From the NCBI GenBank assembly GCA_017628235.1, contig JAGBZM010000033.1, forward strand, positions 1-33,591: DNA of 33,591 bases. Direction: 5' to 3'. Of the stretch, positions 10,217 to 33,591 are shown piece after piece (within the stretch, counting starts at the first letter, position 1; each line of letters begins with the position of its first letter). The position numbers and the translations under genes are program-made. The notes under the pieces were generated by a model that did not search any database, had not been told where the DNA came from, and was given only the letters and a program-made list of their open reading frames with translations. Source of the stretch: Lentisphaeria bacterium (GTDB lineage Bacteria > Verrucomicrobiota > Lentisphaeria > Victivallales > Victivallaceae).

Positions 10217-11061
10217 TGAAATTTATCGGTCCTCATGTTTCTATTGCCGGCGGGGTGGAAAATGCCCCGGTAAATGCCGCTTCATTCGGAGCAACTGCAT
10301 TTGCCCTGTTTACCAAAAATCAGCGGCAGTGGAGTGCGCCGCCGATACCGGAAGCGTCGATCGCGGCATTCAAAGAGAACTGCCGCAAATACGGTTATTC
10401 TGCCGCAGCTATTTTGCCGCATGACAGTTATCTGATCAATCTCGGTCAGCCTGATCCGGTCAAGCGGGCGGCGGCATTGCGCGCATTTATTGATGAATTG
10501 CAACGCTGCCGGCAACTCGGTTTGACGATGTTGAATTTCCATCCCGGCAGTCATCTGAAACTGGTTTCCGAAGATGAAGGATGCCGGATCATTGCTGATT
10601 CGGTGCGTTCGGCTCTGCTGGAGGTGCCGGATGTGTGTGCGGTATTCGAGAATACTGCCGGTCAGGGAAGCAATCTGGGCTATTCATTTGAACAGTTGGC
10701 CATGATGCTGGAAGCTGTCGGCATGCCGGAACGTACCGGTGTATGTATCGATACCTGTCACGCTTTTGCCGCCGGTTATGATCTCTCCGGCGAGGAGGGA
10801 TTTGAAGAGTGTTTTTCCCGGTTCGATCAATTGATCGGTCTGCAGAATCTGCGGGCGATGCACCTGAATGATTCCAAAGGCGTTTTATCCGGACATCTTG
10901 ACCGGCATGCTCCGCTGGGTCAGGGAAGTATCGGATTGGAGACTTTCGGAAAAATTGCCGCCGATCCCCGGTTTGAGAATATCCCTCTGATCCTCGAAAC
11001 TCCGGATGAATCCCGGTGGCAGCAGGAGATTTCCTACTGTCTGGCCCGGGCCAACGGGTGA
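10213..11061 (+). CDS. nfo: Endonuclease IV (apurinic/apyrimidinic endonuclease)
   Basis: 282 residues, a TIM-barrel AP endonuclease with three zinc ions. Zinc-ligand motifs are visible in order: GPHVSIAGG, FHPGSH, FENTAGQGSNLG, CIDTCHAFAAGYD, MHLNDSK, DRHAPLGQG and ILETP. It cuts 5' of abasic sites in base excision repair. The ATG at 10213 (or 10216, both possible) overlaps the upstream stop, so it is part of the nusA-infB-rbfA-nrnA transcription unit. Its stop lies one base from the stop of the convergent phage-type repressor gene. Confidence 0.95.
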   Translation: MMKFIGPHVSIAGGVENAPVNAASFGATAFALFTKNQRQWSAPPIPEASIAAFKENCRKYGYSAAAILPHDSYLINLGQPDPVKRAAALRAFIDELQRCRQLGLTMLNFHPGSHLKLVSEDEGCRIIADSVRSALLEVPDVCAVFENTAGQGSNLGYSFEQLAMMLEAVGMPERTGVCIDTCHAFAAGYDLSGEEGFEECFSRFDQLIGLQNLRAMHLNDSKGVLSGHLDRHAPLGQGSIGLETFGKIAADPRFENIPLILETPDESRWQQEISYCLARANG

Positions 11062-11062
11062 T

Positions 11063-11965
11063 TTACATTTCTGAGATTTTTTTGACCACAATGCCGATCC
11101 AGGCGATGTCTGCCGGAGAAAAGGGGATGATACGTCCTTCCGGATTGTCGCTGGTGAGCATCAACTGACTGTTTTGACGGCGGAAACGTTTGCACACCAC
11201 CTTTTCCGGAGTGTTGCTCTGTTCGGTGAAACGGGCAACCACAACTTTATTATCCGGGATCAGGTCACAATTTTCCACCGGTTCGACCAGCACGATATCG
11301 TCATCCAGAATACGCGGTTCCATTGATATGCCATGCACCCGGAAAGCTCTGGTATCCCGCCGGGAATCAGCCGGTACCGGCACCGTCGGAGTGGTTTCCG
11401 GGTCCCATTGCCCCATTACCACAGTATCGGATTCCAGAGATTCCAGCGAACTGGCGGCATTGGCCCACTCCACGACCGGAACCGGCCGGACCAGCATGGC
11501 TCCATCCCGGTACATGCCGCGCGGCGACAACAGGAGCTTTTCCGCCGGCGTGACCGGGGCAAGATCCGGATCACAGTTGAGAATATCAAATACCGCCGAA
11601 AGCACATCCGGAAACCAATTCAATTCGCCGTCGAATATCCGCCGGAGCGACCGGCTGGAATCATAACCGATGGCCCGGCGCAGCTGATCCACATTGTCGA
11701 TCCCGGCTTTTTGCATGGCATCGGTGACAAAGGCGCGCAATTCCGGAGTGTTGGCAATGGTACCGGAAGTGCGGGGGGGCTGCGGCAATTCCAGTACGGC
11801 AGAGAGTTTTTCCCAACACTCATCGGTGATCCAGAGTACTTTGCCATTCAGATAACGGGAGATATTGGATTCACTGATCTGACATCTGGCAGCCAGTTTT
11901 TTAGCCCCGCCAGCCCGGATGACCGCCTGCTGCAGCGCGTGCAGAATAGTCTCATTCAACCGCAT
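11063..11965 (-). CDS. LexA/CI-like repressor, two HTH domains plus S24 peptidase
   Basis: 300 residues. An XRE-type helix-turn-helix lies at about 7-50 (KKLAARCQISESNISRYLNG), and a second HTH-like unit at about 88-130 (VDQLRRAIGYDSSRSLRRIF). The C-terminal S24 peptidase has the catalytic Ser214 in HGISMEPRI and Lys259 in VVCKRF, so the self-cleavage dyad is intact. The probable cleavage stretch VPVVEWANAAS carries Ala170-Ala171 where relatives usually have Ala-Gly. GGAAAGGGAAG precedes the ATG. It is divergent from the capsid genes, and its own promoter overlaps operator O1, so it should repress both itself and the right-hand operon, and be relieved by RecA-stimulated cleavage (known for the family, inferred here). 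Confidence 0.9.
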   Translation of the reverse strand: MRLNETILHALQQAVIRAGGAKKLAARCQISESNISRYLNGKVLWITDECWEKLSAVLELPQPPRTSGTIANTPELRAFVTDAMQKAGIDNVDQLRRAIGYDSSRSLRRIFDGELNWFPDVLSAVFDILNCDPDLAPVTPAEKLLLSPRGMYRDGAMLVRPVPVVEWANAASSLESLESDTVVMGQWDPETTPTVPVPADSRRDTRAFRVHGISMEPRILDDDIVLVEPVENCDLIPDNKVVVARFTEQSNTPEKVVCKRFRRQNSQLMLTSDNPEGRIIPFSPADIAWIGIVVKKISEM

Positions 11966-12008
11966 GATAAACTTCCCTTTCCATATTTATAATTATCTAC
12001 TTCAATAT

Positions 12009-12039
12009 ATAATATACACTGCTATTACATGCATGCAAG
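12009..12039 (-). promoter_or_regulatory. Repressor promoter overlapped by operator O1
   Basis: On the minus strand TTGCAT (12038-12033) is followed after 16 bp by TATATT (12016-12011), or after 18 bp by TATTAT (12014-12009). The 16-bp operator copy O1, ATTACATGCATGCAAG (12024-12039), covers the -35 box and part of the spacer: two mismatches to the perfect palindrome at O3. This arrangement implies autoregulation. Confidence 0.6.
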
Positions 12040-12069
12040 CAATTTTTTGAAAAAAGTTGATTTTTGCCC

Positions 12070-12098
12070 TTGAAAAATTGCACACATGCAATTATATT
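12070..12098 (+). promoter_or_regulatory. Rightward island promoter with operator O2 filling its spacer
   Basis: TTGAAA (12070-12075), 17 bp, TATATT (12093-12098). The spacer contains operator O2, ATTGCACACATGCAAT (12077-12092), ending at the base before the -10 box. A repressor bound there would block RNA polymerase directly. The predicted start is about 12105, leading into the small ORFs and capsid operon. Confidence 0.75.
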
Positions 12099-12148
12099 GA
12101 GTTTTTGCCGGGACGAAAGAGGTTTCCCGGAATTTTTTGCCCGGTTTG

Positions 12149-12164
12149 ATTGCATGCATGCAAT
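12149..12164. promoter_or_regulatory. Operator O3, perfect 16-bp palindrome
   Basis: ATTGCATGCATGCAAT is a perfect palindrome, the best of three related copies. Centre-to-centre distances are 53 bp (O1-O2) and 72 bp (O2-O3), close to whole helical turns, which would suit cooperative binding. It lies about 45 bases downstream of the main rightward start; a weak second promoter (TTGCAT-18-CATATT) overlaps it. Confidence 0.7.
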
Positions 12165-12225
12165 AACAAAAAACATATTTCAGCCGGGAATGGTTTGGAA
12201 ATTGTCCAGAGGGGAGGAAAATCAG

Positions 12226-12294
12226 ATGTCCGGAATGAAGAGCAGGAGCTTTGCAGCAGCAGAATATCAACAGAAATCACAGGAGGAAAGATGA
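12226..12294 (+). CDS. Possible 22-residue leader peptide
   Basis: An ATG at 12226 follows a strong GGGGAGGAA ribosome site and encodes MSGMKSRSFAAAEYQQKSQE plus two residues. Its TGA overlaps the ATG of the next ORF (ATGA at 12291-12294), so translation could be coupled. The frame is open further upstream but without a usable start after the predicted transcription start. It could be a real micro-gene or just a coupling leader; nothing indicates a function. Confidence 0.35.
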   Translation: MSGMKSRSFAAAEYQQKSQEER

Positions 12295-12506
12295 TGGATA
12301 TTGCGATCGGTCATATCGATGATCCGTTGATTGCACCGTCAGGCATGGTGTATTCATTAAGAGGTTTGCGGCGTCTGGCGTCGGTATTGTGCGGTATTGG
12401 TGTTGACGATATGCGGCAGAAGCGCAGGAGGTCAACGGCGTGGAAGAAGGAGGGCGCATGGACGGAACAAACACCAAGCGGGAGGAAAATTTTGATGAAT
12501 TGCTGA
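12291..12506 (+). CDS. Small unrecognised island protein
   Basis: 71 residues starting at ATG 12291 (or the adjacent ATG 12294), with an excellent CAGGAGGAAAG ribosome site. The sequence begins MMDIAIGHIDDPLIAPSGM and becomes very basic in the middle (MRQKRRRSTAWKK). I recognise no family. It is the first substantial ORF behind the repressed promoter, the position where phages often keep an early regulator or a packaging partner. Its last third overlaps the start of the TerS-like ORF in another frame by about 50-67 bases, so one of the two starts may differ from that given. Confidence 0.45.
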   Translation: MMDIAIGHIDDPLIAPSGMVYSLRGLRRLASVLCGIGVDDMRQKRRRSTAWKKEGAWTEQTPSGRKILMNC

Positions 12507-12700
12507 AATCAGTGGAAAGCGCATTGCTCCGCCGGGCAACCGGATATGAGGATGCTTCAGGCAAACTGGTGCCGCCGGATGTCCGGGCCGCGATGTATTG
12601 GCTGGAAAACCGCTGTCCGGAGCGATGGAAAAAATCCCGCACCCAGGAAAAGGATGAAGACCCGGAAAAATTGCTTTCCGGCGAAGAGAGTGCTTTATGA
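12440..12700 (+). CDS. Terminase small-subunit-like protein, short form
   Basis: 86 residues from a GTG at 12440 with AGGAGG 8 bases upstream; an ATG at 12458 with AAGGAGG close by gives 80 residues instead. The stretch LLRRATGYEDASGKLVPPD, followed by VRAAMYWLENRCPERWKKS, resembles the C-terminal half of many TerS proteins (RAxGYE ... PPDxxAAxFWLxNRxPExW). The usual N-terminal DNA-binding HTH is missing from this frame, since a stop lies about 35 bases upstream. It may be a shortened TerS, or the HTH role may be filled by another island protein. TerL lies 4.1 kb away at the other end, which is unusual. Confidence 0.55.
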   Translation: MEEGGRMDGTNTKREENFDELLKSVESALLRRATGYEDASGKLVPPDVRAAMYWLENRCPERWKKSRTQEKDEDPEKLLSGEESAL

Positions 12701-12736
12701 GAATTATCAATCGGTCAACAGTGAGGAAATAATACT

Positions 12737-14122
12737 TTGAACAACTATATTTTTCAGCGTAAAAACGCTCAATACAGTGCCAATGAACGCCGTTGGCGGC
12801 GGTCATCGGATGCTTATTCCGGCGGCAGAGAATACATTGAGCAGGCGTTGATCCGCCACGTTTCAGAGATCGATCTGGAATTTGCCGAACGCCGCCGCCG
12901 TGCCTATTACTTCAACTATCCGCGTGCCATCGCGCGGCGGATCACCCAGTATGCGTTGAGTGTCGATCCCGTACGGCGCAATGCCGATCCGGAACTGGTC
13001 GAGGATTGGAGCCGCAACGGTCTGCGTACCAATGAAGTAATGCGGCAGTTATCCACTTTGCTCAATGTTTACGGCCGGGCATGGCTGTTGGTGGAAATGC
13101 CGCTTTTCAGCGGAAATCCCACCCGTCAGCAGGCCAGAGAAGCGCGGCTGCGTCCCTATGCCCGGGCATTGTCGCCGCTGCAGGTGGTGGATTGGGCGTA
13201 TGGTGAAGACGGTAAATTGCTCTGGGCCCTGGTTGCCGAGGAACAGTATTGCTGCGAAGATCCGTTTTCACCGCCGGTACGGGTCAGACGCCGGAGATTG
13301 TATGACCGGAATTGCTGGCGGCTTTTTGAAAACAGTTCTTCCGGGGTGCATGAGATCGCTTCGGGGATCAATCCGACCGGATGTGTACCGTTGATCCCGG
13401 TCACTGAACCGGATGGTTTCGGGCTGGCGGCCAATCACTGGTTCGAGGATGTGGTCAGGATCAGTGAAGCGATTTTGAATAATGAATCTGAAGCGCAGAT
13501 GAATACGGTCAAACAGATGTTCGGCATGCTGGTGGTTTCCGATTCGTTTGCCCGCAGTGCCAGGAAACAGATCGGTCACAACGGCAGCGGCGACAGTTTT
13601 TCCGCCACCGTCGCCCGCAGTGCCGCCATCGTGGAATCTGTGGAGGAAAAAGGTATCAGCCGCTATATCAGTCCGTCCGGAGTGGCGACCGATACGATCC
13701 GCGCGGAGAACCGTTACCTGAAACAGGAGCTGTACGATGTGGTCGGTTTGGCAGTGCAGGGGAATTTGCGGGAAAATCAGAGTGCCGAGAGCAAAGCGTG
13801 GGATTTCCAGAATGTCAATCAGTTCCTCGCCGCCAGAGCCGATCTGCTGGAACAGACCGAGTTGGAGGCGTGGAAACTCATGCGTCGTTACGATCTGGAT
13901 CTTCCGGTCCCGGAAATACGCTACAACCGCCGGTTCGCGGTCAATGATCTGGCTGGAGGCATCGCCGGGCTGCTGCAGCTTTCCGGGATCCCCGCCGGTA
14001 ATGCCTATCGCCGGGCAGTAGGTAAAACTGCCGTCGAATTACTCGATGCCATCGGTCATGTCGGCACGCGGGAAAAAGAAAACATCATCAGAGAAATCGA
14101 TCAGGAGACGAAAAATGAGTGA
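12737..14122 (+). CDS. Phage portal protein (DUF4055-like)
   Basis: 461 residues. The only plausible start is TTG 12737, with GAGGAA 10 bases upstream, since an in-frame TGA lies just before. The N-terminal region RRRRAYYFNYPRAIARRI, with a long middle domain and the helical RAENRYLKQELYDVVG region, fits dodecameric portal proteins of the DUF4055 type, which sit at a capsid vertex, bind terminase and conduct DNA. The gene overlaps the start of the scaffold-like gene by eight bases (ATGAGTGA), as is common in head modules. Assignment rests on general resemblance and neighbours; the head context strongly supports it. Confidence 0.75.
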   Translation: MNNYIFQRKNAQYSANERRWRRSSDAYSGGREYIEQALIRHVSEIDLEFAERRRRAYYFNYPRAIARRITQYALSVDPVRRNADPELVEDWSRNGLRTNEVMRQLSTLLNVYGRAWLLVEMPLFSGNPTRQQAREARLRPYARALSPLQVVDWAYGEDGKLLWALVAEEQYCCEDPFSPPVRVRRRRLYDRNCWRLFENSSSGVHEIASGINPTGCVPLIPVTEPDGFGLAANHWFEDVVRISEAILNNESEAQMNTVKQMFGMLVVSDSFARSARKQIGHNGSGDSFSATVARSAAIVESVEEKGISRYISPSGVATDTIRAENRYLKQELYDVVGLAVQGNLRENQSAESKAWDFQNVNQFLAARADLLEQTELEAWKLMRRYDLDLPVPEIRYNRRFAVNDLAGGIAGLLQLSGIPAGNAYRRAVGKTAVELLDAIGHVGTREKENIIREIDQETKNE

Positions 14123-14546
14123 ATCACTTCCGCCAGTTGCGGAAAATCCGGTTGCCGTACCGGAAAATCCGGCCGATCCGGCTGTCCGGTTGGCTGAATT
14201 GGAAAAAGATTACGGCACTTTACAGGAAAAATATGAGCAGCTGCATAAACAGAGCATTCTGGAAAAGATCAGCATGGAAACCGGATGTACCGATCCCGGA
14301 TATCTGGAATATCGCGCCGGACGGCAGGGTATCGATCTCGGTGATCCGGCGGCAGTGCGGGCATTCGCCCGGGAATTGTCGGCCCATTCGCCGGGCTGTT
14401 TCCGCGCCCGGATCACCCCCGGCAGCAGTGCCGGCAGCTCTGTGACCAATCCCCCGTCCGGAGGTCAGGATGAGGGAATTTGCGGGGACCGTATCGGTTT
14501 GATCGCCAGATGTATCGGCGATGCTCCCGAAGCGGTCGGACGATGA
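14115..14546 (+). CDS. Putative capsid scaffolding protein
   Basis: 143 residues from ATG 14115 (CAGGAGACG upstream), overlapping the portal stop. A Pro/Ala-rich N-terminus is followed by a short coiled coil (VRLAELEKDYGTLQEKYEQL) and a less ordered C-terminal half rich in Gly and Ser. Position between portal and major capsid genes, acidity and coiled coil are typical of scaffold proteins (DUF4355-like), which guide capsid assembly and leave before packaging. No protease motif is visible here or elsewhere in the island, so a maturation protease is not identified. Confidence 0.6.
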   Translation: MSESLPPVAENPVAVPENPADPAVRLAELEKDYGTLQEKYEQLHKQSILEKISMETGCTDPGYLEYRAGRQGIDLGDPAAVRAFARELSAHSPGCFRARITPGSSAGSSVTNPPSGGQDEGICGDRIGLIARCIGDAPEAVGR

Positions 14547-14633
14547 TATATTCACCCCAACGGATGATTATCGGAATCATTCAACAAATTGAGAAATTTT
14601 GAAGTTGTTTCAAAACACCAAGGAGAAAAAACT

Positions 14634-15791
14634 ATGCTTTACAACTATTCTTTTGCCAATCGCAAGCGTGACCTGTCTGATGTTATGTCAACTGTCATCA
14701 AAGATGAGCCGCGCTTCATTTCCAATTTCCGCATGGCCCCGGATGCCATGTCGGCCAAACATGAGTATCTGGAAGACCAGCTCACCGGTCGCGGGATCTC
14801 AGTTACCGCCATTGCCGACGGGGTATTGACCCTTTCTGCCGGGGATGCCGGCAAACTCAAAACCGGTACTTTGATCGCCATTAAAGATAATCCGGCACTC
14901 TTGCGGGTGGTGGAAGTTTCCGCCAATTCCGCCAGAGTGGAGATCGCAGCGGTCAACGGTTCGGAGTATTCCGACGTTGCCTCCCTGCCCTCCGGCGGCG
15001 GGAAATTCATCATCGTTTCCACCCCGATGGGCGAGGGTACTTCCAACGGCGACGGTGAGGAAAATTATCATCTGTCAACAGTGGAGTGGAATGCAACACA
15101 GATCTTCCGCAAGGAGATCGTGCTTTCCGGAACTTCTCTGGCCGTCAGTCTCTCCGGCAATGCGGACAATCAGCTCAACCGTCAGACTGCCTTTGCTCTT
15201 GCCGACCTGGCCCGTGATCTCAACCGTGTAGCCCTGTTCGGCCGCCGGGTGGAAGCAAGTGCCAATACCAGAGGTGAAGCCGGCGGACTCTACTTTTTCG
15301 GTACGCAGTCCGGAGTGCCGGTCATCGATGCGAACAAGGTGAAACTGGACAGTTTCATCATCAATGATGCTGCACAGGCGATCCTCGGTGAAGGTGGTGA
15401 TCCCATGCAGATCCTCTGTTCTCCCGGTCAGGCGCGGGTCATTTCCAATGAATACCGTGACCGCATCCAGATCCTGCGTTCCGATGAACGTCGCGGGGCG
15501 TATGTGGCGGTTATCGTCAACGAGATCAATGGTCGCGGCATGACCATCATGGCTGATCCGGATATGCCGGATACTGATGCATGGGTACTGGATACCGGTT
15601 GTTTTGCTCTGGCCAGTCTTTCCGGCAGAGCGATCACCGATATGGATGCTACTCCCAATGGCTTTGACGGTATCCGCCGGGTGGCGATCGGTGAATTGAC
15701 TTTTGAATTCAAAAATGTCAAACAGCGTTGCTGCCGGATCAAAAATCTGCTTGCCAGCGGCGAAGCGATTGCGGCTCTGCGCGGCGCATAA
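14634..15791 (+). CDS. Major capsid protein, SU10/DUF5309 type (HK97 fold)
   Basis: 385 residues from ATG 14634, chosen for the AAGGAG seven or so bases upstream; the frame is open 15 codons earlier. The core NATQIFRKEIVLSGTSLAVS, followed by NQLNRQTAFALADLARDLNRV, is the hallmark of the SU10-like major capsid family, where a repeated helix packs in the A/P domains. About residues 55-115 form an inserted beta-rich domain (GISVTAIADGVLTLSAGDAG ...), probably surface-exposed. It would build the icosahedral shell. A 7-bp hairpin (14597-14603 with 14609-14615) precedes the ribosome site. A very stable hairpin follows the stop. Confidence 0.88.
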   Translation: MLYNYSFANRKRDLSDVMSTVIKDEPRFISNFRMAPDAMSAKHEYLEDQLTGRGISVTAIADGVLTLSAGDAGKLKTGTLIAIKDNPALLRVVEVSANSARVEIAAVNGSEYSDVASLPSGGGKFIIVSTPMGEGTSNGDGEENYHLSTVEWNATQIFRKEIVLSGTSLAVSLSGNADNQLNRQTAFALADLARDLNRVALFGRRVEASANTRGEAGGLYFFGTQSGVPVIDANKVKLDSFIINDAAQAILGEGGDPMQILCSPGQARVISNEYRDRIQILRSDERRGAYVAVIVNEINGRGMTIMADPDMPDTDAWVLDTGCFALASLSGRAITDMDATPNGFDGIRRVAIGELTFEFKNVKQRCCRIKNLLASGEAIAALRGA

Positions 15792-15808
15792 TCGGTATTC
15801 AGCCGGAT

Positions 15809-15847
15809 TTTCCCGCCGTACCGGCCGGTTGCCGGTACGGCGGGGAA
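15809..15847 (+). other. Very stable hairpin behind the capsid gene, without T run
   Basis: CCCGCCGTACCGGC (15812-15825) and GCCGGTACGGCGGG (15831-15844) form a perfect 14-bp stem with a five-base loop, extended by three weaker pairs. AATACTATC follows rather than T residues, so it is not a standard terminator; it could stabilise the capsid mRNA or partly reduce downstream expression. Confidence 0.75.
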
Positions 15848-15877
15848 TACTATCATGTGTAGAGAGAGGTTCCAGCA

Positions 15878-16246
15878 ATGCAATATCAGGAAATTGAAAA
15901 ATATTTTGAAAATCACCCGTTGAAAGAGAAGTTCTCGTCCTTTCCGGATGATGAACGCCGCAGTTGCGTTTCAGTGGCCGAAAGGGATATTCTGGCCGCG
16001 ATCCATCCGGTTGTACCGCAACATTCTGAAGCAGACATATTCCTGGCGGCGGTAGCGGAACAGACATTGTTTCTGCTGCTCAATCCGGAAAATCTTACCG
16101 GCATAAACAGCGGAGTATCAGCAGTGTCTTCGGCCGGAGAAAGTCGGAAATTCGGTCAAGCCGGTGCGCCTCTGCTTGGTCAACGTGCTGCCGGACTGGC
16201 CGGGATGCTTTCCGGTGCGCCGGAGATGAAACTGGTACGCGGCTGA
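15878..16246 (+). CDS. Putative head completion / connector protein
   Basis: 122 residues from an ATG at 15878, with AGAGAGGTTCCAGCA upstream. The first 75 residues look helical (FPDDERRSCVSVAERDILAA, then ADIFLAAVAEQTLFLLL), as in gp6/adaptor-like head-tail connectors, and the C-terminal part is Gly/Ala-rich. Position after the major capsid gene is the usual place for such adaptors, which in tailed phages plug the portal below the capsid. Without tail genes here its function is open. Identification is by position and general shape only. Confidence 0.5.
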   Translation: MQYQEIEKYFENHPLKEKFSSFPDDERRSCVSVAERDILAAIHPVVPQHSEADIFLAAVAEQTLFLLLNPENLTGINSGVSAVSSAGESRKFGQAGAPLLGQRAAGLAGMLSGAPEMKLVRG

Positions 16247-16302
16247 CTGCGATATGCCGCCGGGTGAAATTTTTACAGTAAATTAATTGAGGAGAAAAAA
16301 AT

Positions 16303-16803
16303 ATGGATTGTCCGGAATGCTACGGCAAATTTCCCAACGGTACCGTTCCGTGTGCCAAATGTGAATTTTTTGATTCATGCCGTTATTGGCAGGCAACTGC
16401 CGGCAGTGTCAACAGCCGCACCCATGTCGTCAGTTTTGAAGCGGCTGAGAGCATTATTCCCGATACGCCGGATTTTGATCACATCCCCGGTATGGAGGAG
16501 GAGAATATTCAGGATATCATCATCGACCGGCTGGGAAAATTTTTCCGTTATCTGCTGGAACTTGATGAGTACACTCTGGGGATCGTCACCCAGATCGTTG
16601 CTCCTGCCGGCAGTAAAGCTCCGGCAACGGTCAGAGAATTGGGAGCTCTGCACGATTGTTCCCGGCAGGCGATGCATCGTAAAATGCTGCGGATCATCAG
16701 CCGCCATCCGGAATTATCTGCACTTTTCCAGCTTCTGATGCCCAAACTTTCTGCCGGCAGGAGAGTTTTTCTCCGCCGCCGGGCCTGCGGAAATTGCGGA
16801 TGA
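16303..16803 (+). CDS. Zinc-knuckle and helix-turn-helix protein
   Basis: 166 residues, TGAGGAGAAAA before the ATG. The N-terminus has cysteines at positions 3, 6, 17, 20 and 26 (CPECYGKF ... CAKCEFFDSCRYW), consistent with a zinc site, and the last residues add CGNC (162-165). The middle is acidic (FDHIPGMEEENIQD). Residues about 108-150 hold a helix-turn-helix-like segment (VRELGALHDCSRQAMHRKM). I do not recognise a family. Lying just upstream of terL, the position of TerS in most phages, it may be the actual DNA-recognition partner of the terminase, or a late transcription regulator. Confidence 0.6.
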   Translation: MDCPECYGKFPNGTVPCAKCEFFDSCRYWQATAGSVNSRTHVVSFEAAESIIPDTPDFDHIPGMEEENIQDIIIDRLGKFFRYLLELDEYTLGIVTQIVAPAGSKAPATVRELGALHDCSRQAMHRKMLRIISRHPELSALFQLLMPKLSAGRRVFLRRRACGNCG

Positions 16804-16823
16804 TAAAGAAAGAGAATTGATCC

Positions 16824-18083
16824 ATGTTTACCTATACTTCCGGTCAGAAAGAGGCCCTGCGTCTGCTCTCCGGCCGGGCGCGGCACTGTATGCTCTACGG
16901 CGGTTCGCGTTCCGGCAAGAGCTTTGTCTTGTGCTGTTCGCTGGTTGCCCGGGCTTTACGCGCTCCGGGCAGCCGCCATGCGGTGATCCGCCGTTACTGT
17001 GTCAGTGCCCGCAACACCATCGGCGCCGATACCCTGCCCAAAGTATTACGCAGCCGCTTCGGCAACCGGGTACGTTACCGTTTTCACCGGGCGGAAAGTC
17101 TTTTCCGTTTCGCCAACAACTCCGAAATCTGGCTGATCGGTCTGGACGATGGAGAGAGAGCCGATAAAATACTGGGTAAGGAATTTGCCACTGTCTACTT
17201 CAATGAGTGTTCTGAATTGGATTACGCCAGCGTGCAGACCGCATTGACCCGGCTGGCCCAGAATATCCCGCCGCTGCTGAACCGCGCTTACTATGACTGC
17301 AATCCTCCGGGCAAGAACCATTGGAGCTACCGGCTGTTTGTGGAAAAGTGCGATCCGGTTTCCCGGAAAAAACTTCCGTATCCGGAAGATTATGCCGCCA
17401 TGCGGATCAACCCGGATGCCAACCGGGAGAACCTGCCCGCCGGCTATATCGAATATACCCTTGGTTCTCTCCCGGAACGTCAGAAAAACCGGTTTCTGGC
17501 CGGAGAGTGGGCCGATGATCTGGCCGGAGCATTGTGGAATTGGACCATGATTGATCCCTATCGCGTGACGGAGGTTCCGGAATTGATATCAACGGTTATC
17601 GCGGTCGATCCGGCAGTCAATTCCGGAAAGGAGTGCGATACCACCGGGATCATTGCCGCCGCCTGCGGCAGGGATGGGGATTTCTATATTCTGGAAGACC
17701 GGAGTATGCAGAGTTCTCCGGTCGTCTGGGTGCGGCGGGTGATCGAAATGTATCACCGGCTGCGGGCCGATCGCGTTATCGTGGAGGTGAATAACGGCGG
17801 CGAATTGTTTTCCGCCCTCTTTGCCAGTGAAGATGATTCAGTCCGGGTCGAACCGGTCCGGGCGGTCAGAGACAAGTTTTCCCGGGCCGAACCGGTTGCC
17901 GCTTTCTATGAAAAAGGAATGGTTCACCATCTGGGGGTGTTCCCGGAACTGGAACAGGAGATGTGCGCTTACCAGCCGGGGATCTATACTTCTTCGCCTG
18001 ACCGGATGGATGCGATGGTTTGGGCCGTGACCGGATTGGCAGCCGACCGCCGCCGCAGCAGTGACCGGTTCATCCTTTCTTAA
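16824..18083 (+). CDS. Terminase large subunit
   Basis: 419 residues, full length. The packaging ATPase has Walker A GGSRSGKS (26-33), Walker B ATVYFNE (122-128) with catalytic Glu128, and motif III DCNPPGK (158-164). The nuclease domain is RNase-H-like with acidic residues at D262 (VDPA), D272, E321 (VEVNNGG) and D396 (RMDAMVWA). It cuts concatemeric DNA and pumps it into the procapsid through the portal. All active-site residues are present, so it may be functional. It ends the island, and its TAA overlaps the stop of the convergent rodA gene. Confidence 0.93.
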   Translation: MFTYTSGQKEALRLLSGRARHCMLYGGSRSGKSFVLCCSLVARALRAPGSRHAVIRRYCVSARNTIGADTLPKVLRSRFGNRVRYRFHRAESLFRFANNSEIWLIGLDDGERADKILGKEFATVYFNECSELDYASVQTALTRLAQNIPPLLNRAYYDCNPPGKNHWSYRLFVEKCDPVSRKKLPYPEDYAAMRINPDANRENLPAGYIEYTLGSLPERQKNRFLAGEWADDLAGALWNWTMIDPYRVTEVPELISTVIAVDPAVNSGKECDTTGIIAAACGRDGDFYILEDRSMQSSPVVWVRRVIEMYHRLRADRVIVEVNNGGELFSALFASEDDSVRVEPVRAVRDKFSRAEPVAAFYEKGMVHHLGVFPELEQEMCAYQPGIYTSSPDRMDAMVWAVTGLAADRRRSSDRFILS

Positions 18084-20650: not shown

Positions 20651-20778
20651 ATGCGCTGACCGCTTTTTCCGGAAAAACCTTGCTTTTTAACGGGAAACGC
20701 CGGCGCTGCAGATCAAACCGGTGCTGCATTCATATTTCCCGCCGGATCAGATGCATACAGTTTGCTGGACAGACGGTA

Positions 20779-21162
20779 TCATTCACCGGTCAGGACAACG
20801 GTGGCTACCGCGTATTTGGTTTCGTGACTGATGGACAGTTTGATATCCGTCACACCGAGCGAATCGGCCAGTTTGGCCGCAGAACCGGAAAAGGTCAGTA
20901 CCGGGCGGCCGTAATCATCGTTAAGTATTTCGATATCAGTGAATGTGCAATTTTCTCCGATACCGCATCCCAGAGCTTTGGCCGCCGCTTCTTTGGCTGC
21001 CCAGCGTCCGGCAAAATAGGGGATGTGTCCGCTTTTGGTATCCGCCAGGATCAATTCATCCACCGTATAAACTCTCTCGCGGAAACGGCAGTCAAAACGG
21101 TCAAGAACAGCTTTAAGACGGGCAATTTCAACGATATCAGTACCCAAACCGATGATTTTCAT
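20779..21162 (-). CDS. acpS: Holo-[acyl-carrier-protein] synthase
   Basis: 127 residues, the standard size of a trimeric AcpS. The magnesium-binding Asp lies in IGLGTDIVEIARL, and the second signature is FAGRWAAKEAAAKALG; the C-terminus has the typical LSISHETKYAVATVVL. It transfers 4'-phosphopantetheine from CoA to apo-ACP for fatty acid synthesis. GAGGTAAC is the ribosome site. It lies nine bases downstream of rnc and is presumably on the same transcript. Confidence 0.95.
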   Translation of the reverse strand: MKIIGLGTDIVEIARLKAVLDRFDCRFRERVYTVDELILADTKSGHIPYFAGRWAAKEAAAKALGCGIGENCTFTDIEILNDDYGRPVLTFSGSAAKLADSLGVTDIKLSISHETKYAVATVVLTGE

Positions 21163-21171
21163 AATGTTACC

Positions 21172-21900
21172 TCATTTTTTGAAACGGCGGAGCAGAAATC
21201 TGACCAGCTTCACCGCTGCATTGACTTCAGCAGCTTTCCGGCTCAAACCGGTGCCGACTGCGACAAATTTATCCACGCGCACTTCCACATCGAAATATGG
21301 AGCATGCTGCGGACCGCCGCTGCGTAAAAGCGTATATTCCGGAGTGATATGCCACCTGCCCTGGGAAAATTCCTGCAGCTGTCCTTTGGGATTGAGCGTA
21401 TCCAGCAGTTGCGCCGGATCGGAAAAATCTTCCCGGAAAAGGTTGTGGATGAATTTGCGGGTGTGTTCCAGACCGCAGGCCAGATACATGGCCCCCAGCA
21501 CTGCTTCAAGCAGATCGCACAAGGTGGATTCGCGGTCATTGCCGCTGCACTCTTTTTCACCGTTGCCGATCAGCAGATAACTGCCCAGTTCGATCTGCCG
21601 AGCCAGCCGAGCCAGAGTTCCCTCGCAGGAGAGTGCAGAACGGATCTTGGTCAAATCCCCCTCCGGCAGATCCGGGTAACGGAAGTAAAGATATTCCGTA
21701 TGGACTATTTCCAACACCGCATCACCGAGAAATTCCAACCGCTGATTGTCGTAGTCAAGGGAATTTTCCACGGCGTATGTCCGGTGGGTGAGAGCCTCTT
21801 TGAGCAATGGCAGTTTGTCTGCCGGAAATCCGAGCTTTCTGCCGAGAGCCGGGATTTTTTCCACATTCATAATCTGTTGATTCCAAACAAAGTCATCCAT
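21172..21900 (-). CDS. rnc: Ribonuclease III
   Basis: 242 residues from ATG 21900; an internal ATG at codon 11 is an alternative, and neither has a strong ribosome site. The signature NQRLEFLGDAVLEI and the second acidic cluster DLLEAVLGAMYLACG form the dimeric catalytic centre. A double-stranded RNA-binding domain occupies about residues 165-240 (NPKGQLQEFSQGRW ... GLSRKAAEVNAAVKL). It processes rRNA precursors and other duplex RNA. It follows argG by 45 bases and precedes acpS. Confidence 0.95.
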   Translation of the reverse strand: MDDFVWNQQIMNVEKIPALGRKLGFPADKLPLLKEALTHRTYAVENSLDYDNQRLEFLGDAVLEIVHTEYLYFRYPDLPEGDLTKIRSALSCEGTLARLARQIELGSYLLIGNGEKECSGNDRESTLCDLLEAVLGAMYLACGLEHTRKFIHNLFREDFSDPAQLLDTLNPKGQLQEFSQGRWHITPEYTLLRSGGPQHAPYFDVEVRVDKFVAVGTGLSRKAAEVNAAVKLVRFLLRRFKK

Positions 21901-21945
21901 TCCGGCACATTGGTACCGGAATGGAGAAAAAATTTGTATGAATGC

Positions 21946-23148
21946 TCAGTAGCGTTTCTGTTTGCTCCGGGCAAGAACCCGCAGACGCAGACCGTTGAGC
22001 CGGATGAAACCGGAAGCATCTTTGTGATCGTAGACCTCCGCACCCTCAAAGCTGGCGATCTCATCATCGTAAAGACTGTATTCACTGCGCCGTCCGGTGA
22101 CATGGCAGGCACCTTTGTAGAGTTTGACCCGGACATCACCGGTGACGAACTTCTGACTTTCGGTGATCATGACCTGCAGCATCTCTCTTTCCGGAGCGTA
22201 CCAGAAGCCGTTGTAGATCATATCCGCATAACGGGGGATCAGGCTGTCGCGCAGGTGCATGACTTCACGGTCGAGGGTGATCTCTTCCAGACCGCGATGT
22301 GCTGCCTGCAGAATGGTACCGGCGGGAGTTTCATAAACGCCCCGGGATTTCATACCGACGAAGCGGTTTTCCACGATATCGATCCGGCCGACGGCATGTT
22401 TTTTACCGATGGTGTTGAGAGTACGCATGATGTTGGCCGGGGAATATTCTTTGCCGTCGATTTTGACGGGGATACCCTTTTCAAAGGTGATGACCACATC
22501 TTCAGCTTCATCAGCAGCTTTGCTCAGAGGTTCGGTCATGACCGCGATATCCTCCGGAAATTCGTTCCAGGGATCTTCCAGAATGCCGCCTTCAAAACTG
22601 ATGTGCAACAGATTGCGGTCCATGCTGTACGGTTTTTTGGCGGAGACATTGACCGGGATATTGTATTTTTTGGCATATTCGATCATATCCATCCGGCCGG
22701 TGAAGTGCCAGTTGGGGTCACGCCAGGCGGCGATAACTTTGATGGACGGATCGATCGCGGCGGCGTTGAGTTCAAACCGGACCTGGTCATTACCTTTACC
22801 GGTGGCACCGTGACAGATGGCATCGGCACCTTCGGCTTTGGCGACTTCGACGAGGCGTTTGGCGATCAGCGGGCGGGCGATGGAAGTACCCAGCAGGTAG
22901 TTGTTTTCATAGATGGCTTCGCCCTGAAGCATCGGGAAGATGAAATCGCGGGCGAATTCTTCATTCAGATCGTCGATGATGCACTTGCTGGCACCGGTGG
23001 CGATCGCTTTGGCTTCCAGACCGTCCAGCTCCTCCTGCTGACCGACGTCGGCACAGTAGCAGATGACTTCTGCGTTGTAAGTTTCTTTGACCCATCTGAC
23101 GATCACCGAAGTGTCCAGACCGCCTGAATACGCGACTACAACTTTCAT
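21946..23148 (-). CDS. argG: Argininosuccinate synthase
   Basis: 400 residues, full length. N-type ATP-pyrophosphatase motif [10 protein letters not shown] (6-15); the aspartate and citrulline binding region includes [18 protein letters not shown]; the C-terminal domain contains [19 protein letters not shown]. It joins citrulline and aspartate in arginine synthesis. Ribosome site GGGAG. Transcribed from a region shared with the divergent glycosylase gene; no argH or other arg genes are nearby, so it stands apart from a classical arginine operon. The downstream rnc and acpS may be cotranscribed. Confidence 0.97.
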
Positions 23149-29841: not shown

Positions 29842-32800
29842 ATGAGTATGTACAAAAACATTTTCGTGAACGAGAATGCGGATCAGTCTGCATCCGTTCA
29901 GATCCAGGGCATCGACGGGAGCATCTCCAATTTTGGAGAGGGATTCTCCTCAGTCGAAGCGGCTCTGGCGGCGGTGACCGCCGAAAACAGTAACGCGGTC
30001 ATCCGTGTGGTATCCGGCAAATATGACGGATACAAAGTGGTCACAGACGGTGTGGAAAGTGAGCCGGCGACGGTGGTTGCGGTGAATTTCGGTGGCGGCG
30101 AAGTTGCCAATGAGGTGACTTTGGCGGATACCGGATTCAGTGCGGCGCAGCAGTTGTCGGTGATCGATGACCTGAATGCGGCGAATGCGGCCGGCGGCAA
30201 AGTTTTTGTTGTTGCCGGTGATAATGTTAATGCAGATGCCGCATTGGTAGTGGGTGTGAGTTCCGATGGTTCGCAGTATGTGGTCAGCAGTGCGGTGACT
30301 GAAACCGATATCAGTGATCTTATTCAGATCGTAGAAGGAGTTGTGCCCAGTAAACGTATTGTTGTTGACAATACGATTTCTGCCAACATTGAGGGTAAGC
30401 AGTACAAAACTTATGCCGAGGCATTAGCGTATGTTCAGGAAAATAATGCTTATGACAGTACTATTGTTTTGTCCAAAACTCCGACAGATTCCATAAACAA
30501 TACTACGACAGCTGACTATAATCATTACGATATCGGTTTTGAGGTTAAGGAAGGGGCAACGTTCTTCCTTGGCGGCAACAGTATCAAAATGAAAAAAGAT
30601 TTCGTTGTTGAAGCCGGAGCTGTGCTTATTGGCCAACGTGACAGTTTGAATCAGGTTCAGGTTGATGGCGGTAGTTTTGTCATTGGCGAAGCCGGAGATA
30701 ATAAGAATATCGCAAAAGTTGATTTTACCAGAGATACTCCTGGGAGAGGATACAGTTTGATCGTCAAGGAAAACAGCTCTCTGGTTGCGAACAATGCGGA
30801 AATAAAAACTTTTGATATGACCACCAACGGTGCGGCGGTATTCAATGATACAAATGTTAATGTCAATGGAACCCTTGCATTCGGTTGGGACCGCAGTGAT
30901 GACGAAGGCAACTTCTATGCAGCTGAAGATGTGAAGTTGAGTAATTCTGATTTCACTGTCAGCGGCAACAAAAAGTATGACTCCTCTTACTACCAGAGTA
31001 CCAATCTTCTGAACAATTTGGTGATGGAAGATGGTTCAACAATTACATTCGGCACGGCAGAAGCCGGTTCGGCGAATGTGCTGATGAAAGATGTGACGAT
31101 GGTCGATGGTTCCCAAGTCACGGTCAATGGCGGCCAGATCATTTTGGGAACGGAGGACGGTGAAGTCGGCAGCGACATTATCACTCTGGATGGTGAAGGC
31201 ACCAAACTGGCGAGCATTTGGAACGAGGGAACCGTCAGCGGTCAGAAATCGGCGGTGCTGAATGTGCTGAACGGCGCGGAAGTGTATGCTTCCAGTACGG
31301 TCAAAATCGCCGGAACGGCGAATGTGGATGCTTCTACTGTAAAATCCACCAATATCGGGGTTTACGGTGAGAATGCCGATCAGATTGCAGAAATGTATCT
31401 GACCAACGGCGCAACTCTGGCTGCAAGCGGCACTTTGAAATTGGTGCATGATAGCAATACTGACCGGGTCGGTGTGCTTTCGGTGGATAACTCCACTGTT
31501 ACTGCCGGACAGGTTCTTATCGGAGCCGGTTCATCCATTGAAGTTGCCAATGGCGGTAAATTCGGTGGTACTGCCGACAAGAAAATGACCGTTACCGGCG
31601 TGGATAAAGGCACCTGGGGAACTGGATTCTGGGCCTATGATTCCACCGTTGAAAACGTTGATTTCAACAATCAGACGGTGTTGTTTGACGGCGGAACGGT
31701 GGTCAAAGATGTGACTGTTACCGGCGGATCTGCCTTTTTCGGATACGGCGGCGGTTCAAGTGAGGCTGTCGTTATTCAGGGAACGGTTGATACGACCAAA
31801 GCCGAATGGAAAGAAAATTACACCGGAGCCGGCAATTACGGCACGCTCAAGGTCGCAGAAGGAGCTATATTCAAGACCAACTATTATGGTGACACGGCTG
31901 CCAACGGCAATACCATTATTGATGGAACATTTGAAGCTGCCACTTTCCGCAGTTATAACGGCGCGGTCAATGAAGGCGGTTTGCTCAAAGCTTCCGGTGC
32001 GGTGAATATTTACGGCACTCAGCCCGGAAAAGAAGCTTCGGTATACACCGTCAAAGGTGATATCAATGTTTCCGCAACTGATGCAAACGCTTACAACTTC
32101 AAACTTGGTTATGAAGGCGGCGATTATCAGGGTACCGGCAATGTGATCATGAATGTTGAGGGCGGTTCGATCACGGTCGGTTCTGCGGAAAAATCTGCGT
32201 ACAGCTATATTGCCAAAGATGCAAATGGTGTTCAGGCCCAATTGAATTTGACTGATGGCGCAAGTTTTGTTACTATCGGAACTTTGGAAAACAACGGTAT
32301 TATCACAGTTACCGATGCTACGATCACGGCCGGGGAGATTACCGGCAGCGGTACGATCAGTTTGACGGTGACGGCGGAAATGCTCAACAGCCTGACCGGC
32401 GATTTTGTGCTGCTCGAACAGACCGGCAATGCTGCTGCGCTTGATTTGAGCGTAAGCATCGCGGGCAAGAGCTACAAAGTCGGTGATACTTTTGAAAACA
32501 ACGGTATCAAGTTCCAGATTTCCGACGGTGTTGGTGACAATGATATCATTCTGGACATGACCATTGATCAGGTCTATGTCAATTCTGCTTTCAACGAAAA
32601 CAATGCCGGTGGTTTTGTCTGGGGAGTCAATGCGTTTGACAGCATTTCCGATGCGATTGCCAGCGGTCATAAAAATATCGTGGTGCAGAGTGATATTACC
32701 GATTCAATTTCTTCGCTTGGTGGAATTGCCATCAGTACCGACAAGGCTGACGGTGTGACTATTACCAATACCTATGCTGATTGGGTGTATTTTAATACGA

Positions 32801-33591
32801 ATGCTTCCATCGGCGAAAATGTTATTTTGAATAACGATGCGGAAAGTGGATTCTTCGCTTATGGTAATACTGTCATTAACGGTGATGTAGTTGCCTATGC
32901 TCCCTACACCCGTTATGCTGGAACTCTGACTGTCGGAACGACCGGTTCACTGACTTTCTCCGAGCAGTTTGTGATCCGTTATTCTGATAACGATACTGAA
33001 GTACCGCTGATCAACATTGTCGGTAATGCGGAAGTCGGAGCTGCTGCCGAAGACCGTACCGCACAGTTGAATTCCAATCGTGGTTACATGACGTTCTACA
33101 GTGGTACGATCAATGCCACTGATACTTTGGTTAATGGCGGCCATCTGCTGATGACTCAAACGACCGATGCCAATTATTCTGATACGCCTGCGGTGATAAA
33201 TCTGGATAATACTATTTGGAATTTTGCTTCAAACGATTCAAATGCGGCGAACCTCGACGGCAAAGCGGTTATCAATGCCACAAACAAGAGTGTGCTTAAC
33301 TTCGCAGATGACTTGATATTGAATGGCAAAGATACTGCCGTGAATCTGACCGATTCCACTTTGAATGTGGCACGCGGCGGAGTCACCAACAATGGTACAA
33401 TCAACATCACTGATTCCACTTTCAAAGCGGGAAAAGTTGACAACGACAATCTGTTTTATATCGACGGCGAAAGCACCGTGCAAATCGATGATGCCACCGG
33501 CAGCAGCTACGCTTTACGCGTTAAAGATGGTGCTACTTTGAATGATTCCTACATCAAAGCCAAAGATAACGCCACTCTCCGTATGCTCGGC
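29842..33591 (+). CDS. Giant cysteine-free beta-helix surface protein (adhesin-like), 5' part
   Basis: Open from ATG 29842 to the window edge, 1250 codons without stop; the C-terminus is missing. No N-terminal hydrophobic signal is present. No cysteine codon occurs in the 1250 codons. The composition is rich in Gly, Asn, Thr, Val and Ala with repeating short strands (VTVNGGQIILG, LTNGATLAASG, LSVDNSTVTAG), typical of AIDA/pertactin-like right-handed beta-helices. Three similar modules, at residues 4-60, 171-215 and 911-950 (IxVN ... F/YxS/TxxxALA ... IxVxS), begin new helices, and the block LLEQTGNAAALDLSV to NDIILDM looks like a helix-closing segment. It is probably exported and cell-surface bound; the secretion route cannot be judged without the C-terminus. 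Confidence 0.8.
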   Translation, partial: MSMYKNIFVNENADQSASVQIQGIDGSISNFGEGFSSVEAALAAVTAENSNAVIRVVSGKYDGYKVVTDGVESEPATVVAVNFGGGEVANEVTLADTGFSAAQQLSVIDDLNAANAAGGKVFVVAGDNVNADAALVVGVSSDGSQYVVSSAVTETDISDLIQIVEGVVPSKRIVVDNTISANIEGKQYKTYAEALAYVQENNAYDSTIVLSKTPTDSINNTTTADYNHYDIGFEVKEGATFFLGGNSIKMKKDFVVEAGAVLIGQRDSLNQVQVDGGSFVIGEAGDNKNIAKVDFTRDTPGRGYSLIVKENSSLVANNAEIKTFDMTTNGAAVFNDTNVNVNGTLAFGWDRSDDEGNFYAAEDVKLSNSDFTVSGNKKYDSSYYQSTNLLNNLVMEDGSTITFGTAEAGSANVLMKDVTMVDGSQVTVNGGQIILGTEDGEVGSDIITLDGEGTKLASIWNEGTVSGQKSAVLNVLNGAEVYASSTVKIAGTANVDASTVKSTNIGVYGENADQIAEMYLTNGATLAASGTLKLVHDSNTDRVGVLSVDNSTVTAGQVLIGAGSSIEVANGGKFGGTADKKMTVTGVDKGTWGTGFWAYDSTVENVDFNNQTVLFDGGTVVKDVTVTGGSAFFGYGGGSSEAVVIQGTVDTTKAEWKENYTGAGNYGTLKVAEGAIFKTNYYGDTAANGNTIIDGTFEAATFRSYNGAVNEGGLLKASGAVNIYGTQPGKEASVYTVKGDINVSATDANAYNFKLGYEGGDYQGTGNVIMNVEGGSITVGSAEKSAYSYIAKDANGVQAQLNLTDGASFVTIGTLENNGIITVTDATITAGEITGSGTISLTVTAEMLNSLTGDFVLLEQTGNAAALDLSVSIAGKSYKVGDTFENNGIKFQISDGVGDNDIILDMTIDQVYVNSAFNENNAGGFVWGVNAFDSISDAIASGHKNIVVQSDITDSISSLGGIAISTDKADGVTITNTYADWVYFNTNASIGENVILNNDAESGFFAYGNTVINGDVVAYAPYTRYAGTLTVGTTGSLTFSEQFVIRYSDNDTEVPLINIVGNAEVGAAAEDRTAQLNSNRGYMTFYSGTINATDTLVNGGHLLMTQTTDANYSDTPAVINLDNTIWNFASNDSNAANLDGKAVINATNKSVLNFADDLILNGKDTAVNLTDSTLNVARGGVTNNGTINITDSTFKAGKVDNDNLFYIDGESTVQIDDATGSSYALRVKDGATLNDSYIKAKDNATLRMLG

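Follow-up and report, generated by a model that had tools for sequence, protein, structure and literature searches.

Gene transfer agents (GTAs) are known from few lineages, mostly Alphaproteobacteria, and the lack of means to find distant ones is the main gap (PMC11841831). As GTAs are defined, their genes are expected to be spread over several loci (PMC9662315, PMC11841831). The agent of Rhodobacter capsulatus (RcGTA) is encoded by a 14.5-kb core cluster and ectopic loci under the activator GafA (PMC6854486, PMC9638019, PMC9662315), and loss of the helix-turn-helix (HTH) half of its small terminase (TerS) has been proposed to abolish sequence choice in packaging (PMC6854486). The closest parallel to the locus described here is the agent of Faecalibacterium prausnitzii, FpGTA (PMC12946183). 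In the open-access literature we found no paper linking GTAs with Victivallales, and links to Lentisphaerae or the wider Planctomycetes-Verrucomicrobia-Chlamydiae group were made in passing only. Here we analyse a 33,591-nucleotide stretch of a Lentisphaeria bacterium of the family Victivallaceae (contig JAGBZM010000033.1, referred to hereafter as the window), a single contig from a draft genome of 1.46 Mb that is 54% complete. The window holds an island that runs from an S24 repressor gene to the large terminase gene (terL). In our judgement this island is quite probably the head operon of a dispersed GTA-like element that had not been described before.

Somewhat less firmly, we favour a wider reading in which this is a GTA of the Lentisphaerota, of an age that lets it span the Victivallaceae, its phage genome split into single scattered genes tied by a shared promoter element; the head genes would keep the ancestral phage order under an S24 repressor here, with the head scattered in most other genera. 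Counts given below for the genus and the family come from profile searches with one genome per species.

The head operon and its repressor

The island has the following features, and its genes are intact.

11063-11965, minus strand: S24-family (CI/LexA-like) repressor with HTH and peptidase domains (PF00717, E=6.7e-15; phrog_4, E=1.5e-19; alignment of 21 homologues; ratio of nonsynonymous to synonymous substitutions, dN/dS, 0.12)
12025-12038, plus strand: operator O1, TTACATGCATGCAA, one mismatch to TTGCA-N4-TGCAA; a similar site occurs in relatives
12070-12098, plus strand: promoter TTGAAA-17 bp-TATATT, read from the sequence, its spacer filled by operator O2 (12078-12091); about 10 species have an equal arrangement
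12150-12163, plus strand: operator O3, TTGCATGCATGCAA, an exact TTGCA-N4-TGCAA, which most species have some 72 bp away from O2
12291-12506, plus strand: short open reading frame (ORF) recognised by its conservation, 71 aa from the first ATG
12401-12426, plus strand: promoter-like element TGTTGACGATATGCGGCAGAAGCGCA, common to the upstream regions of the trans tail genes by motif comparison
12458-12700, plus strand: TerS without the N-terminal HTH half (alignment with TerS of tailed prophage L045 and of terS-terL pairs; directly before terL in dispersed loci)
12737-14122, plus strand: portal protein (phrog_145, E=2.7e-44; single copy in most genus genomes; dN/dS 0.03)
14115-14546, plus strand: scaffold-like protein, named from its position between portal and capsid, where the order is kept; without family match
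14634-15791, plus strand: major capsid protein, SU10 type, HK97 fold class (PF17236 SU10_MCP, E=1.3e-44; phrog_1328, E=7e-27; tree)
15878-16246, plus strand: connector/adaptor-like protein, function from position only; in prophages and in dispersed loci the gene after the capsid gene is a homologue
16303-16803, plus strand: protein with a Cys-rich (zinc-like) N-terminus and an HTH-like part (Zn/HTH protein), whose place beside terL is kept in 28 islands as well as in prophage L045/L115
16824-18083, plus strand: large terminase (TerL), ATPase and nuclease motifs intact (PF17289, E=4.6e-15; PF04466; PF03237; alignment)

An earlier note, made from the DNA sequence alone, had described this island as a tail-less capsid and packaging module under its own repressor. 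The portal, scaffold-like, SU10-type capsid, connector-like and TerL genes that it listed were all recovered intact at its coordinates, and S24, portal, capsid and TerL had Pfam or PHROG matches. The Walker A motif of TerL (GGSRSGKS) and the nuclease acidic residues were invariant in 18 aligned homologues, and a large-terminase profile of the PDB matched (5oea, E=3.9e-7). The list was real as far as it went; it had missed terS, the Zn/HTH gene and the short ORF are added to it, and the starts of the capsid gene (14634) and the scaffold-like gene (14115) had to be revised. A sequence search of the PDB gave no relative of the capsid protein, and a prophage homologue of the Zn/HTH protein gave weak HTH matches only. 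Family searches of the island genes found no tail, integrase, lysis or replication gene, as that note had said.

Exact copies of the operator TTGCA-N4-TGCAA are present in the window at 12078 and 12150, with a one-mismatch copy at 12025. In the other island loci searched, exact copies were concentrated between S24 and terS, and the earlier description of a maintained repressor-operator switch was right; three loci without an S24 match (L054, L055 and L058) were likewise without operators. The repressor of the window has an intact Ser-Lys dyad (GISMEP...VCKR), as in its clade, and Ala-Ala in place of the usual Ala-Gly at the cleavage site. The catalytic serine is lost in two subclades (L042, L044, L046 and L047; L049, L051, L053 and L056), where self-cleavage of the repressor would thus be impossible. 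Because of the Ala-Ala site and these losses, release of the repressor by self-cleavage after DNA damage is possible in the window and would not be general. The short ORF between O3 and terS (pattern IxDPLIxxxGxxYS) is kept in at least 10 islands and might encode a small regulator.

Tail genes in trans and a shared promoter element

The tail tube of the cultured strain zth2, used as a single query, found almost nothing in the genus, and profiles were therefore needed. A tube profile built from scattered sets and two prophages gave single matches in most genus genomes. With a genus tube profile, matches were obtained in 27 of 34 genomes, including the window's own (G000:C7, E=1.3e-44). The structure model of the tube from that genome (predicted local distance difference test score, pLDDT, 82) had its best PDB matches among tail tubes, neck proteins and Hcp, and one of these matches was chain 50 of a native GTA particle (6tba). 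A head-closure profile detected short solitary genes in the genus, located directly upstream of the tube in several species. The window's own genome also holds a gene, referred to here as the Dit-position gene (G000:C48), which recurs as a 280-aa gene in six genomes, this one included. Of the three trans tail genes, that genome has the tube and the Dit-position gene. It has no Pfam or PHROG match. Its profile matched a gene of a tailed prophage, the one that immediately follows the tape measure there (E=8.5e-23; BLASTP 25.5% over 286 aa, E=5e-16). The model of the protein was poor (pLDDT 60), with weak PDB matches and with uncharacterised phage proteins as matches in BFVD, so that the name rests on homology to the prophage gene.

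A second tube gene in one genome (G010:C36, L246 3452-4183) lies beside a gene for a 243-aa helical protein. Similar pairs were seen in zth2 and other genera (L165, L168, L226) and could be a tube with a short tape measure.

The element upstream of terS reads TGTTGACRAT-N5-GCA. A weight matrix was built from 13 island copies only and was tested on tube upstream regions that it had not seen; 11 of the 12 outscored all 186 control upstream regions of the same genomes. In distant subclades the element differs, yet it is again common to island, neck and tube. With the subclade-specific element, 8 of 8 regions of one subclade took first or second rank against 86 controls, as did 3 of 5 regions of the other group against 68 controls. 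A pattern search of 11 genomes gave 52 matches, compared to about 16 with a reversed control, and the matches included the Dit-position gene. No single finding argues more strongly for one regulon of island and tail genes than this motif search, which led to a tail gene. The label 'tail-less' therefore no longer fits, since these genomes encode a tube, a head-closure gene and a further tail gene at other sites, with the island's promoter element in front.

The element may work as follows. A tailed phage would have been tamed by an ancestor of the family and would now be inherited with the chromosome. The S24 repressor would silence the head operon via the three operators, one of which occupies the promoter spacer. 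Once repression is lifted, the operon would yield TerS, portal, scaffold, capsid, connector, Zn/HTH protein and TerL, while the trans tail genes (tube, head closure and Dit-position) would be turned on via the shared element, possibly by the Zn/HTH protein encoded beside TerL, so that a tailed particle could assemble. TerL, with a TerS lacking its sequence-recognition half, would then fill heads with mostly non-specific host DNA. Alignment showed that TerS of the window's clade is without the N-terminal HTH half present in homologues, a loss that would lead to the packaging of mostly host DNA; as a sign of random packaging it is only suggestive. We infer co-expression, particle assembly, host-DNA cargo and delivery from these genes.

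Inheritance and rival explanations

The island was found in about 28 species of the genus, with its gene order unchanged and a single copy in each genome. A search for the same order in related genomes had been proposed as a check, together with dN/dS of terL and the capsid gene, and both came out in favour of a maintained island. TerL was present in 31 and the portal in 30 of the 34 genus genomes, nearly always single, and the three genus genomes without the island are all incomplete. The order terS-portal-scaffold-capsid-connector-Zn/HTH-TerL was identical in the 25 core-mapped islands, which span 5.5-6.2 kb. Between the window and its nearest relative, dN/dS of seven genes (terS not counted) was 0.03-0.22, with 0.034 for the portal, 0.072 for the capsid and about 0.12 for TerL and S24; dS of the island genes matched that of neighbouring host genes. 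TerL identity tracked that of nfo (r=0.94) and ftsW (r=0.96) across 17-18 species, which are not independent, and portal divergence also tracked host genes. The capsid and TerL trees recovered the same subclades. Taken together, the single copy, the host-like dS, the tracking of identity and the matching subclades indicate that the island is inherited vertically and is under purifying selection.

In the capsid tree the island capsids form one group, inside which one viral contig and a single stray copy are also placed. The viral contig is 52 kb long (L091, IMGVR_UViG_3300028832_005824) and its capsid gene lies inside the island clade, beside G006, which suggests exchange between the element and phages. 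Another sequence filed as a virus (L090, IMGVR_UViG_3300022661_003906) carries an S24 island of this genus type.

Could the island be what is left of a prophage, retained by chance, and the tail genes be unrelated strays? It is without replication, integration, lysis and most tail genes, and in G005 the capsid gene is split over two frames (L055 10884-11890), by a frameshift or an assembly error. Against this, the island is intact across about 28 species with TerL identity as low as 55%, selection on the seven genes is strong by the ratios above, the operators are conserved and the promoter element is common to island and tail genes. Disrupted genes or relaxed selection, as in a decaying prophage, were not found: genus matches had no internal stop codons except for one stop each in two portal matches (G039:C58 and G007), within a read-through upstream extension. 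No complete tailed prophage, which the earlier note had said would mark a plain remnant, was seen at the site in the loci fetched; it is another genus that carries a tailed relative of the head module (G037). We therefore rejected this explanation, which is hardly credible given selection and conservation, and agree with the earlier note that the island is not a decaying prophage. A capsid-forming satellite, which would package its own DNA and take tails from a helper phage, would account for a compact set of head and packaging genes that has a repressor of its own and lacks tail genes nearby, and the flanking genes of the island do vary between species. However, nfo and ftsW are themselves not adjacent to each other in the other genus genomes searched, so that shuffling of the genome is indistinguishable from transposition of the island. 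No integrase was found in the island or among the Pfam-matched ORFs of the window, and the neighbours abut both ends (nfo ends at 11061 and ftsW, on the opposite strand, at 18080), leaving no room for att sites or terminal repeats. The single copy and the host-like divergence also speak against a satellite, as do trans tail genes of its own that carry the island's element. A satellite is thus very unlikely and was rejected on the absent integrase, vertical inheritance and own tail genes, and the borrowing of tails suggested in the earlier note falls with it. The alternative suggestion of that note, a function for the host, is probably correct.

That function might be one other than gene transfer. 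The same island and trans tail genes could form a tamed phage particle that does not deliver DNA, used to kill relatives in the manner of PBSX or as DNA-filled or empty shells with another role. Conservation and the regulon evidence fit such a particle equally, delivery cannot be shown by sequence, and PBSX packages host DNA without injecting it (PMC12946183). Nevertheless, portal and TerL are conserved with intact catalytic residues, implying DNA packaging, and the HTH loss of TerS in the window's subclade resembles that of RcGTA. We consider a non-delivering particle unlikely. Several observations weigh against the GTA-like element itself. FpGTA particles have been seen experimentally (PMC12946183), whereas for the Victivallaceae element particles, packaged DNA and transfer are predictions from its genes. 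The tape measure, receptor-binding, baseplate and lysis genes of the set were not found in the genus, and the island is without the minor head protein of related prophages. TerS in other island subclades retains the HTH half. All genus genomes are draft metagenome-assembled genomes, the window's own being 54% complete. Two genomes without the island (G023 and G030) have a Dit-like match and, weakly, a neck or tube match; co-occurrence of tube and island within the genus was accordingly dropped as proof.

Outside the island, the large ORFs of the window with Pfam matches are housekeeping genes; ORFs 20680-21327 and 21349-23127 had no Pfam match, and a search of the window against Rfam gave no match. 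An open-ended repetitive ORF at 29842-33591 (more than 1250 aa) resembles a large surface protein.

Comparison with known systems

The records matching the contigs analysed are assigned to Lentisphaeria, Victivallaceae and Victivallis, many of them from the guts of ruminants and other herbivores. In the family's other genera most homologues stand singly, dispersed among housekeeping genes: the capsid gene, accompanied by scaffold and connector, lies beside leuCD or close to gyrB and recA, TerL is found by itself or paired with TerS, and the portal, together with a head-closure gene, lies beside plsX/fabH. Among 26 genomes of other genera, 20 had both TerL and portal, usually unlinked, and the same 6 had neither. 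The portal lies near plsX/fabH in zth2, G051 and G059 (L221, L222, L225), with the head-closure gene after it in the first two; this looks like an old fixed location. Homologues of the portal, capsid, TerS/TerL and tube genes are present in the cultured zth2 (CP071032) and other Victivallaceae, every one at a separate place on the chromosome. Unlike the island, these sets are fully scattered, and no S24 island was found beside them. Strain zth2 is placed in a different family by its authors (PMC11361711) and groups with Victivallaceae in the genome collection used. When zth2 was given laminarin, its phage genes rose 4- to 200-fold and hexagonal and icosahedral particles appeared (PMC11361711).

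Two tailed elements share the head order of the island (terS-portal-scaffold-capsid-connector...Zn/HTH-terL), namely the prophage G037:C10 of an uncultured member of the Victivallaceae (L045/L115/L159) and L093 from IMG/VR. Their portal, capsid and TerL are 59-65% identical to those of the island, and both carry an extra minor head protein between the connector and Zn/HTH genes. In the G037 prophage the neck, tube, tape measure and later tail genes form one block. Since two tailed elements have this order, the island order is most simply that of the ancestral phage. Single-sequence searches of phage collections with capsid and TerL gave distant matches only (<60% identity).

This case shows that a head operon labelled tail-less can form one half of a machine whose parts lie scattered, and that missing tail genes can be retrieved with a promoter element they share; one of those genes had no Pfam or PHROG match. 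As cultured zth2 carries a scattered set, a concrete test is possible.

The earlier note had held that the island fits neither satellites nor GTAs, a view that does not stand once GTAs are expected to occupy several loci. Three of the six features by which GTAs are recognised (PMC9662315) were tested by sequence, and all three were found: proteins derived from tailed phages (portal, capsid and TerL by Pfam or PHROG, and a tail-tube fold in trans), endogenization at several loci (the island with tube, head-closure and Dit-position genes, and full scattering in other genera), and vertical inheritance with co-diversification. The other three features concern the particles: mostly random host DNA as cargo, heads too limited in size for the whole of the agent's own genome, and delivery of the DNA to other cells. 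With the loci scattered, packaging of the element's whole own set is unlikely. By comparison with capsid-forming phage-inducible chromosomal islands, an integrase, att sites and a mobile unit were not seen in the island or the Pfam-matched window genes, and the tail genes are encoded by the host rather than supplied by a helper.

Like the locus described here, FpGTA has a head operon with TerL, portal, scaffold, capsid and a TerS without the DNA-binding domain, more structural genes grouped in another operon some 125 kb from the first, a gut anaerobe as host and a near-universal presence in its genus (PMC12946183). It belongs to another phylum and is probably podovirus-like, compared to the tail tube found here (PMC12946183); the tail genes here are single instead of forming one operon, and the head operon carries an S24 repressor. 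RcGTA likewise has a TerS without the HTH half (PMC6854486), but in the Victivallaceae island only the head is clustered, and it stands under a repressor with operators where RcGTA has an activator.

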